Assembly: GCA_947446815.1 (NCBI GenBank)
Contig: CANFGT010000006.1
Location: 62,001 to 126,000 of the forward strand
DNA: 64,000 nt
Direction of reading: 5' to 3'
Origin: Acidimicrobiaceae bacterium
Lineage (GTDB): Bacteria > Actinomycetota > Acidimicrobiia > Acidimicrobiales > Ilumatobacteraceae
Every line of letters begins with the position of its first letter. Within the stretch, counting starts at the first letter, position 1. Below, piece after piece: positions 51,606 through 55,476 of this stretch. A program made the position numbers and the translations under genes. Under the pieces are notes generated by a model that searched no databases, was not told where the DNA came from, and was given only the letters and a program-made list of their open reading frames with translations.

Positions 51606-51612
51606 CGGCAGA

Positions 51613-52179
51613 GTGTTCACCGGAATTATTGAGGAAAAAGGCTCGGTCAAGGCCCGCGAAGGGTCTCGCCTGACCATTGCGGCCCATACGGTGCTTGAAG
51701 ATTCAGGCATTGGGGCCTCCATTGCCGTTAATGGCTGCTGTCTCACCTTGGTCGAAAAAGGCTCTGATTGGTGGCTGGCCGATGTTTCCGAGGAAACGTA
51801 CTCCCGCACCAATTTGGGCAATCTTCAGCCCGGCGACCCCGTCAACCTCGAGCGCCCCATGGTGGCCAATGGCCGCTTCGGTGGCCACATCGTTCTCGGT
51901 CACGTCGATGCCGTGGGTGAAATCGTCTCTCCTGCGCCACGACTCATCGTGCGTATCCCGCAAGAGCTCATGCGCTATGTCGTGGAAAAAGGTAGCTGCA
52001 CCATCGATGGCATCAGCCTCACGGTGTTCAACCTCACCGTCGACACCTTCGAAGTAGCTGTCATTCCCCACACTGCCGAAGTGACCACGCTCGGACATCG
52101 CAATCCTGGCGACAAGGTGAACATCGAGATTGATGTTCTTGCCAAGCATGTTGAGCGCCTGATGGGACACTCTGACTGA
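51613..52179 (+). CDS. ribE: Riboflavin synthase, alpha subunit
   Basis: A 188-residue protein that dismutates two 6,7-dimethyl-8-ribityllumazines into riboflavin and 5-amino-6-ribitylaminouracil. The N-terminal FTGIIEEKGSV and the two homologous lumazine-binding barrels (GCCLTLVEK and GHVDAVGEI; GSCTIDGISLTVFNL and PHTAEVTTLG) are intact. The GTG start at 51613 gives the canonical N-terminus. No other rib genes are adjacent except ribF 3.3 kb away; the next gene starts one base after the stop. Confidence 0.94.
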   Translation: MFTGIIEEKGSVKAREGSRLTIAAHTVLEDSGIGASIAVNGCCLTLVEKGSDWWLADVSEETYSRTNLGNLQPGDPVNLERPMVANGRFGGHIVLGHVDAVGEIVSPAPRLIVRIPQELMRYVVEKGSCTIDGISLTVFNLTVDTFEVAVIPHTAEVTTLGHRNPGDKVNIEIDVLAKHVERLMGHSD

Positions 52180-52180
52180 C

Positions 52181-52960
52181 ATGGCTGATTTATCCGATCT
52201 TCGCTCACGCATCGATGAGATTGATGCAGCAATTGTTGTCCTTCTTGCCGACCGCATGAATGCATGCCGTGAAGTCGCAGAGATCAAAGAGACAACAGGC
52301 GCTGCAGTTATTCAGCCGCAGCGTGTTCGTGATGTGTTAGCTAGCCGTCGCCAGTGGGCTATTGATGCTGGTGTCGACGCTGACTTTGCAGAACAGTTGT
52401 TCCGCACATTGCTTTCAGAGACCCACCGCATTGAAGTTGCTGAACAACGTGTTGAGCCAGCGCCGACGAAAGAAGCAGGCACAACTTCGCGAAGCGAACT
52501 CGACACTGTTGCGTGTCGCATCGACCATGTGGTGGTTGCAGTTGCTGATCTTGCGGCCGCACAAAGCTTCTTTGCTGGAATGGGATTCCGCATCACCACG
52601 ACCGATCACGCAACTGTTGTGAACGCAGAAGCCGGTGGCGTCACCGTCGTGCTTGTTAGCGGAGACAACAACGCCGCAGTTCAGAAGCAACTTGCCGAAC
52701 ACGGCTCCGGAGTGCAGCAAATAGCGATTGAGGTTCTCAATGCGGGCTACACCCGAGATGCATTGGATGCCGCAGGGGTCCCTCGACTCACCGATGTTGT
52801 TGTTGATGCAGAGGGTCATGAGCAGGTCTTCACAGCTGTCGATCCCGCTACGGGCGTACAGCTCAGTTTCATCAGCCGCACGGGCCACCGTGTGCCGATG
52901 AGCAGCCACAACGTCTCGGCCATGTTCCAGGCCATTTCCAACACCGACACTGCCCAATAG
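52181..52960 (+). CDS. Chorismate mutase fused to a VOC (HPPD N-terminal-like) domain
   Basis: A 259-residue two-domain protein. Residues 1-90 are an AroQ-type chorismate mutase (LRSRIDEIDAAIVVLLADRM, EVAEIK, QPQRVRDVL, LFRTLLSETHRIEVAEQ). Arg10, Arg25, Lys36 and Arg48 fit the active-site positions that bind chorismate and make prephenate for Tyr/Phe. After a linker, residues 110-238 form a vicinal-oxygen-chelate fold (CRIDHVVVAVADLAAAQSFF; VTVVLVSGDNN; LAEHGSGVQQIAIEV; VQLSFISRTG). The EHGSGVQQIAIEV block resembles the non-catalytic N-terminal half of 4-hydroxyphenylpyruvate dioxygenase. His116 occupies a metal-ligand place, but Gln180 and Ser229 stand where other ligands would be. It starts one base after ribE and lies before fbiC. 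Confidence 0.85.
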   Translation: MADLSDLRSRIDEIDAAIVVLLADRMNACREVAEIKETTGAAVIQPQRVRDVLASRRQWAIDAGVDADFAEQLFRTLLSETHRIEVAEQRVEPAPTKEAGTTSRSELDTVACRIDHVVVAVADLAAAQSFFAGMGFRITTTDHATVVNAEAGGVTVVLVSGDNNAAVQKQLAEHGSGVQQIAIEVLNAGYTRDALDAAGVPRLTDVVVDAEGHEQVFTAVDPATGVQLSFISRTGHRVPMSSHNVSAMFQAISNTDTAQ

Positions 52961-53082
52961 GCGAGGTACGCTTGAAGGGCTTGGTCATTTGGCCATCGGT
53001 GGACACTCTCTAACTCGTCCGCAGGTGGTTCGACCAGTACTGACAAAACCCATTCCGTTGTGTTCGCCTGAAAGGTGCTGCC

Positions 53083-55476
53083 TTGTTGCGTCAGTTCTCC
53101 CGTGATGACCTCATGTCGTCCTCCCCGATTGATGAATCATTCATCAACGATCTTTTGCATTCTTCACTTGAAGACCTCATGCAACGTGCGCGCGATAAGC
53201 GCGATGCCGCTCACGGCACCCGCATCACGTTTTCACCCAAGGTGTTTATTCCGCTCACGATGTTGTGCCGCGACAAGTGTGGTTACTGCACCTTTGCTCA
53301 ACCACCTGCGCGATTAGAAAAGCCCTACCTCACCGCCGAGGACATTCTTGCGATTGCTCGTCAAGGTGCTCGCATGGGTTGTCACGAAGCACTGTTCACT
53401 CTGGGTGAACGTCCCGAACTTCGATACGACGTTGCAGCAGATTGGTTGCGCGACAACGGTTACGACAGCACCGTGCATTATTTACATGACATGGCGCAGT
53501 TAGTACTGAACGAGACAGGTCTATTGCCTCATGCCAATGCAGGTGCGTTGTATGAAGATGAACTTGCCATGCTGCGCGCCGTGTCCCCTTCGCAAGGGAT
53601 GATGCTGGAGTCATTACGCGATGATCTTGAATGCCATCGCGGAGCACCAGACAAAGAACCACAACGCCGCATCGACACACTGTGTTTGTCAGGCGAGCTT
53701 GCGATTCCGTTTACTTCCGGAATCTTGGTCGGCATCGGCGAAGAACGTCGTGACCGCATCGACGCTTTGGCACTTCTTGCAGCAGCACACGCCAAGTACG
53801 GCAACGTGCAAGAGGTCATCGTGCAGAACTTCTTGCCAAAGGCCGGCACTGCAATGCACAAAGCAAAGCCATGCCCCGAGGATGAATACTTGTGGTCCAT
53901 CGCTGTTGCGCGTTTGATCTTGCCTTCAAGCATTCACTTGCAAGCACCACCGAACTTGTCGGACGACTTTGGTGTTCTGCTTGATGCAGGTATCGACGAC
54001 TGGGGTGGCGTCTCCCCTGTCACTGCAGACCATGTGAACCCCGAACGACCATGGCCAGCACTTGATCGCTTACGTGATGTCACCGAAGACCGTGGCTTTG
54101 CTCTCGCACCACGTCTCACGATTTACCCAGAGTTCGCAACTGCGCCAGAGAAGTGGCTTGACCCGTCCTTGCACTTCACCGTGATGGACCGCACTGATGC
54201 CGAAGGGATGAGCCGCGATGATCCGGGTGCGTTCTGGCCAGAGAAAGTCACTGCAGCCGACGTTGTTCTTGACGGCGCAGAAGTTGTTCTTGTCGGTCAC
54301 AAGTCCACGCAGTGGTACTCCGGTTCCAACGTGAAACCAATGACGCTCGTGCCGCACTCACGTCCATTCGCACGTGGTCGCATCGCTGAAATCATTGAAG
54401 GTCATCGCAACGGCCAAGAACTCGGTGAACAAGAAGTTGTTGACCTCTTCCGTGCGCGCGGACCTGAAGTCGGCCTCATCGCTGACTACGCAGACGAGCT
54501 GCGCTTCAAAGCAGTAGGCAACACCGTGACATGGGTGCACAACCGCAACATCAACTACACCAATGTGTGCACCTACAAGTGCAAGTTCTGCGGATTCTCT
54601 AAAGGTCCACTGTCTCTCAACTTGCGCGGCACGCCGTACTTGCTCACATTGGACGACATTGCAGACCGCGCAGTGGAAGCTGCTGCAATGGGCGCCACCG
54701 AGGTGACATTGCAGGGCGGCATTCACCCCGACTTCGACGGCGACTATTACATCGACGTCACCAAAGCTGTGAAGTCTGCAGTGCCCGACATGCACGTGCA
54801 TGGTTTCACCGCACTTGAAGTCACCGAAGGCGCCCATCGCAATGGCGAGTCGCTTCGTGATTACTTACAGCGTTTGAAAGATGCTGGTCTTGCTTCACTT
54901 CCTGGCACCGCTGCAGAAATTCTTGATGACGAGATTCGCGCCATCATCTGCTCCGACAAGGTGAACACCGAAGAGTGGCTGGAGTGCCATCGCCAAGCGC
55001 ACAGCATTGGTCTGCACAGCAACATCACCATCATGTACGGCAGCGTGGAACACCCCATCTCATGGGCGCGTCACATGGTTGTCACGCGCGAGCTACAAAA
55101 AGAAACCGGCGGCTTCACCGAGTTCATTCCATTGCCGTTTGTCCACATGGCCTCCCCCATCTACCTGCAGAAGAAGTCCCGTCGCGGGCCTACCTTCCGC
55201 GAAACAGTTCTCATGCACGCAATTGGCCGCATCTTCTACGACGGCCTCATTGACAACGTGCAGGTCAGCTGGGTGAAGATCGGCACCTCCGGTGCTGCAC
55301 AGTTACTGCAAGCCGGATGCAATGACCTTGGCGGAACACTCATGGACGAGAACATTTCTCGTGCAGCAGGCGCCAACCACGGTCAAGCAATGACCGAAGG
55401 TCGCTTCGGTGAAATCATTGCGCCGTTGCGTCGTCAACTTGCACAACGCAACACGGCTTACAAAGTTCTTCAGTAG
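53083..55476 (+). CDS. fbiC: FO synthase (CofG-CofH fusion), F420 biosynthesis
   Basis: A 797-residue fusion of two radical SAM enzymes that together make 7,8-didemethyl-8-hydroxy-5-deazariboflavin from tyrosine and 5-amino-6-ribitylaminouracil. The CofG half has the cluster motif CRDKCGYC (Cys62, 66, 69). The CofH half has CTYKCKFC (Cys496, 500, 503). GGIHPDFDGDYY and MYGSVEHPISWARH are typical of CofH. The TTG at 53083 has AAAGGTG upstream; an ATG at 53113 is an alternative. Fusion is characteristic of actinobacteria. A 122-base gap separates it from the chorismate mutase gene. Confidence 0.96.
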   Translation: MLRQFSRDDLMSSSPIDESFINDLLHSSLEDLMQRARDKRDAAHGTRITFSPKVFIPLTMLCRDKCGYCTFAQPPARLEKPYLTAEDILAIARQGARMGCHEALFTLGERPELRYDVAADWLRDNGYDSTVHYLHDMAQLVLNETGLLPHANAGALYEDELAMLRAVSPSQGMMLESLRDDLECHRGAPDKEPQRRIDTLCLSGELAIPFTSGILVGIGEERRDRIDALALLAAAHAKYGNVQEVIVQNFLPKAGTAMHKAKPCPEDEYLWSIAVARLILPSSIHLQAPPNLSDDFGVLLDAGIDDWGGVSPVTADHVNPERPWPALDRLRDVTEDRGFALAPRLTIYPEFATAPEKWLDPSLHFTVMDRTDAEGMSRDDPGAFWPEKVTAADVVLDGAEVVLVGHKSTQWYSGSNVKPMTLVPHSRPFARGRIAEIIEGHRNGQELGEQEVVDLFRARGPEVGLIADYADELRFKAVGNTVTWVHNRNINYTNVCTYKCKFCGFSKGPLSLNLRGTPYLLTLDDIADRAVEAAAMGATEVTLQGGIHPDFDGDYYIDVTKAVKSAVPDMHVHGFTALEVTEGAHRNGESLRDYLQRLKDAGLASLPGTAAEILDDEIRAIICSDKVNTEEWLECHRQAHSIGLHSNITIMYGSVEHPISWARHMVVTRELQKETGGFTEFIPLPFVHMASPIYLQKKSRRGPTFRETVLMHAIGRIFYDGLIDNVQVSWVKIGTSGAAQLLQAGCNDLGGTLMDENISRAAGANHGQAMTEGRFGEIIAPLRRQLAQRNTAYKVLQ

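Follow-up and report, generated by a model that had tools for sequence, protein, structure and literature searches.

Phenylalanine and tyrosine synthesis starts with chorismate mutase, a textbook example of an enzyme controlled by fused domains. In the 64,000-nucleotide stretch of Ilumatobacteraceae DNA that we analysed (the window), one gene joins an AroQ chorismate mutase to a VOC domain, and the question is what the second domain does there. The original prediction likened it to the N-terminal half of 4-hydroxyphenylpyruvate dioxygenase (HPPD) and described the architecture as unfamiliar; in the open-licence literature we likewise found neither a mutase joined to a VOC or glyoxalase domain nor a paper on chorismate mutase in Ilumatobacter.

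Fusion of domains often serves regulation in the aromatic pathway (PMC10520331, PMC1173090). The known AroQ fusions (PheA, as CM-PDT-ACT; TyrA, as CM-PDH; DAHPS-CM; and the exported CM-CDT) resemble the present protein, CM-VOC, in that AroQ is joined to a second domain. In contrast, the partner in CM-VOC is a VOC cup, neither the next enzyme nor an ACT domain, and prephenate dehydratase (PDT) and prephenate dehydrogenase (PDH) are encoded by separate genes. If the VOC domain senses a ligand, it would be a new kind of regulatory domain at a well-studied branch point.

The fusion gene and its distribution

The two domains lie in one open reading frame, as predicted, with a single 259-residue translation that matches first the CM_2 profile and then the VOC profiles (Table 1). 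In an AlphaFold2 model of the whole protein (mean pLDDT 81), three mutase helices are followed by the linker, the VOC cup and a C-terminal helix; the VOC part modelled alone has a pLDDT of 86. The linker, with its higher dN, is the fastest-changing stretch of the protein.

Table 1. Coordinates of the fusion gene, its domains and its neighbours in the window
Feature	Position	Strand	Remarks
ribE, riboflavin synthase	51610..52179	+	PRK09289 over cut-off
AroQ-VOC fusion protein, 259 aa from ATG	52181..52957	+	stop codon 52958-52960
AroQ chorismate mutase domain, residues 7-85	52199..52435	+	CM_2 match, residue mapping
Inter-domain linker, about residues 86-110	52436..52510	+	higher dN; pLDDT 66-68 at residues ~90-110
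VOC domain core, about residues 111-233	52511..52879	+	profiles, model, alignment; pocket positions H116, Q180, Q215, F217, S229
C-terminal tail and helix, residues 232-258	52874..52954	+	resembles last helix of HPPD catalytic half
fbiC, bifunctional FO synthase (CofG and CofH domains)	53083..55476	+	122 nt downstream of fusion gene

An assembly error that joins two separate genes, or a frameshift artefact, is ruled out by the recurrence of the fusion in independent assemblies and by strong purifying selection on both domains. The locus occurs in 48 loci from independent MAG assemblies, on contigs of up to 476 kb, and a full-length fusion is present in 95 of 150 Ilumatobacteraceae genomes, with four more copies cut by contig ends. 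Many pairs are saturated; those that allowed an estimate of dS give a dN/dS of about 0.02-0.05 in the VOC domain and 0.03-0.10 in the mutase. Judged by these substitution rates, the two domains are equally constrained.

The carriers are mostly freshwater actinobacteria. Sorted by genus, 15 of 27 have the fusion, 11 have a stand-alone AroQ and one has neither. One further copy was found in another family of the same order (G004). For members outside the order, we scanned once for close relatives and searched a 396-genome sample of the phylum, in which the full-length matches are in Ilumatobacteraceae only. Some public MAG records with an Ilumatobacteraceae-type locus (L037, L039, L046, L053, L057) bear the name Bifidobacterium breve or Acidimicrobium ferrooxidans DSM 10331 in their titles, which look wrong.

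The mutase domain and its place in the pathway

The prediction of a complete N-terminal AroQ mutase is borne out by a nearly whole match to the Pfam CM_2 profile (residues 7-85 against profile positions 1-79 of 80; 76.3 bits against a gathering score of 27, E 2.1e-21). Mapped onto the E. coli AroQ sequence, R8, R25, K36 and R48 are the equivalents of R11, R28, K39 and R51, and all four are invariant in 51 homologues. The E. coli residues D48, E52 and Q88 correspond in the same mapping to Q45, V49 and E85. These three positions differ among active AroQ mutases, the E. coli type is not universal, and the yeast mutase has a Glu at the position matching Q88. With Gln and Val at the Asp48 and Glu52 positions, mutase activity of the domain is best treated as a prediction.

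The domain's closest solved relative is PchB, which raises the alternative that it is a PchB-type isochorismate-pyruvate lyase and not a mutase. The lyase model PRK07075 gives 58.2 bits, and the alignment places a Val at the Glu52 position in both PchB and the fusion, but the score lies below the model's cut-off of 126 bits and the genomic context calls for a mutase. The fusion holds the only AroQ in genomes that have PDT and PDH and lack AroH, so that prephenate would have to come from it. We consider a lyase highly improbable.

The genomic argument rests on a count of pathway genes. Exactly one CM_2 protein, either fused or stand-alone, was found in 59 of 61 Ilumatobacteraceae genomes; AroH was not found in the 21 genomes searched; PDH was found in 20 of 20; and the source genome encodes PDT, which has an ACT domain, separately from PDH. 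Consequently, the fusion is predicted to serve as the sole, housekeeping chorismate mutase where it occurs and to convert chorismate to prephenate. In two genomes of one genus (G676 and G691) no CM_2 mutase was found, nor was AroH in G676; incomplete assembly, a mutase of another kind or auxotrophy may account for them.

In a tree of AroQ domains, the fused mutases and the order's stand-alone mutases form separate clades on long branches, which led us to reject descent of the former from the latter; of the sequences within the fusion clade, L078 and L079 look like stand-alone mutases but are fusions truncated where their contigs end. The stand-alone mutase gene of G211 sits between miaB and miaA, elsewhere than the fusion gene. 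Since the clades are apart and the locations differ, the fused AroQ is more than a local stand-alone mutase to which a tail was added. By phylogenetic placement, the fusion genomes carry a different AroQ subtype in place of their relatives' stand-alone mutase.

We now consider the gene's neighbours. A single nucleotide separates the ribE stop codon from the ATG of the fusion gene, a spacing from which we infer that the two genes are probably co-transcribed; no RNA elements were found near the fusion gene. FO synthase, the product of fbiC, joins tyrosine and 5-amino-6-ribitylaminouracil, and the latter is also a by-product of riboflavin synthase. The trio therefore makes metabolic sense: across the run from ribE to fbiC (51610-55476), both FO precursors, tyrosine by way of prephenate, would be supplied beside the enzyme that joins them.

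The arrangement of ribE, fusion and fbiC is limited to part of Ilumatobacteraceae, and conservation of ribE beside the fusion gene is confined to the freshwater clade. In the deeper relatives (L064-L074), the fusion gene is preceded by an ABC transporter ATPase and permease and followed by an NMT1/THI5-like binding protein; these different neighbours rule out a functional tie to ribE and fbiC as a general rule. Both types of neighbourhood are flanked by rpsO/pnp and ribF/truB. The transporter locus (for example L068:4449-7932) lies just before ribF, and one might guess at riboflavin or a vitamin precursor as its substrate.

Fold and kinship of the VOC domain

The predicted VOC fold of the C-terminal part was confirmed by Pfam matches over their cut-offs within residues 113-213 (Glyoxalase_4, PF13669, 28.6 bits against 27; Glyoxalase, PF00903, 25.9 against 20.6) and by the similarity of the model to VOC structures, whose fold consists of paired beta-alpha-beta3 modules. 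The best fold matches, obtained with VIA-align at Z of 12-14.8 and with scores within 1 Z treated as tied, are HPPD, hydroxymandelate synthase and methylmalonyl-CoA epimerase, and both HPPD halves are among the top matches.

Kinship with the N-terminal half of HPPD in particular is a different matter. The HPPD-like fold stands, while a specific relation to that half is unsupported: the HPPD N-terminal domain PF14696 gives 17.0-18.5 bits against a gathering score of 27, epimerases score alike, and although the CM-VOC domains group together in a single clade of the tree, the joins are weak (79/53). The 4HPPD model (TIGR01263) gives the domain 35.6 bits, far from its curated cut-off of 277, and gives the genome's own methylmalonyl-CoA epimerase 33.0 bits; because the epimerase scores as well, the likeness to HPPD is not specific. 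The epimerase model TIGR03081 in turn gives 29.4-31.8 bits against a cut-off of 114.95. Aligned as a profile with hhalign, the VOC domain matches methylmalonyl-CoA epimerase best (8e-13), followed by HPPD-N (8e-10) and HPPD-C (2e-7). The epimerase is, like CM-VOC, a single cup of similar length, but it has no C-terminal helix, and a separate epimerase is encoded in the source genome.

The end of the domain points elsewhere in HPPD. Its motif (RxG...N...AxFxAI) and terminal helix match the catalytic C-terminal half and, of the three profiles compared (epimerase, HPPD-N and HPPD-C), are present only in HPPD-C, with Q215, F217, R233, G235, N244, A247 and F249 as the letters in common. With a profile of the HPPD-C tail, all epimerase and HPPD-N controls score lower than nearly every CM-VOC protein; the scores are individually weak (best E 6e-4 for 100 sequences) and the evidence is their consistent ranking. 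With HPPD and hydroxymandelate synthase, then, CM-VOC has in common the fold (Z up to 14.8), the first metal His, and the catalytic half's tail motif and terminal helix. It differs from HPPD in having one cup instead of two and a Gly or Ser in place of the metal Glu.

Metal site, conserved positions and candidate roles

The original prediction placed His116, Gln180 and Ser229 at the metal positions, exactly where we find them, and called the triad incomplete. The loss of the Glu proves to be general, with Gly or Ser at position 229 in 51 of 51 homologues. The Gln at position 180 does not: 46 of 51 homologues have His there, the window's protein shares its Gln with three near relatives, and L006 has Arg. 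The first metal His, H116, is found in all 51. The 2-His-1-Glu iron site of HPPD is thus absent from the window's protein, and the epimerase ligands (His, Gln, His and Glu), placed by alignment, correspond to His116, Val156, Gln/His180 and Ser/Gly229, so that two of the four are lacking. Together with the score cut-offs, these ligands rule out a catalytic HPPD or epimerase. Since the metal Glu is Gly or Ser, the cup cannot work as HPPD, and since the source genome yielded no full HPPD either (one was found among the 20 genomes tested), it is very unlikely that the domain carries out dioxygenase chemistry. Regulation of HPP breakdown is unlikely on the same count of HPPD genes.

A second enzymatic function of another kind was also weighed, in which the VOC domain converts prephenate or some 2-oxo acid related to it, either without metal or through a two-His site formed by H116 and the H180 of most relatives. 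Many VOC proteins are metalloenzymes, and with the first His invariant and the second so frequent, the change from Glu to Gly beside them would leave an open coordination site. But the window's lineage dispenses with the second His, a loss that would hardly be tolerated in a metal enzyme, the position of the usual beta-4 ligand is occupied by Val, Phe or Ile, and the genome has no missing step of Phe/Tyr synthesis for the domain to fill. A second enzyme is, in our judgement, quite improbable.

Conservation extends beyond the metal positions. H116, E184, E214 and R233 are the invariant polar residues of the domain and, with Q215, each is present in 50-51 of 51 homologues, a pattern that suggests a pocket. 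The ligands of HPPD are aryl-pyruvates, keto acids that stand just downstream of prephenate. These pocket-like polar positions and the nature of the HPPD ligands lead us to propose a sensor. The sole mutase would feed the separate PDT and PDH; the VOC domain would be a single HPPD/epimerase-like cup, not a dioxygenase, from which the metal Glu has been lost; the cup would most likely bind a small molecule akin to prephenate or an aryl-pyruvate; and binding may adjust mutase activity, in the manner of the ACT domains found elsewhere in the pathway. We put forward this proposal tentatively, at a little under an even chance.

The proposal competes with a structural role, in which the VOC domain brings about oligomerisation or lends the mutase stability, and has no physiological ligand. 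The QuiC1/QsuB dehydroshikimate dehydratases provide the precedent, being likewise shikimate-pathway enzymes with a C-terminal HPPD-like part of unproven role; a structure of this type (5hmq) is among the fold matches, at Z 12.3. Removing the HPPD-like domain from QsuB changed its oligomer state, from octamers to mostly monomers, its kinetics and its type of product inhibition; no catalysis, including dioxygenase activity, was detected for the domain, and a role in oligomerisation was proposed (PMC7442255). The metal site is lost in CM-VOC too, as a structural role would allow. Polar conservation of the pocket type (H116, E184, E214, Q215, R233) nevertheless exceeds what a scaffold needs, although part of it could reflect residues at an interface, and we regard a purely structural domain as unlikely. 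QuiC1/QsuB differ from CM-VOC in joining a catabolic TIM barrel to a full two-cup HPPD-like part, where CM-VOC joins AroQ to a single cup; CM-VOC is thus a simpler case in which the role of these unexplained HPPD-like domains can be tested.

Returning to the sensor proposal, there is a further and more doubtful form of it, which is possible but which we would not bet on: the VOC domain may be a former HPPD-type catalytic cup turned into an allosteric sensor of aryl-pyruvate or prephenate, of a non-ACT kind, with an operon tie, in the freshwater clade, to both precursors of the F420 chromophore, tyrosine and a product of the riboflavin pathway. If true, aromatic amino-acid synthesis would have a non-ACT regulatory domain that is fixed in most genera of the family. 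In this group of aquatic actinobacteria, the mutase carries a domain that is built like an enzyme of tyrosine breakdown.

The two most divergent fusions are L006, which has the Arg at the second metal position, and L009, from another family, in which the VOC domain is shortened.
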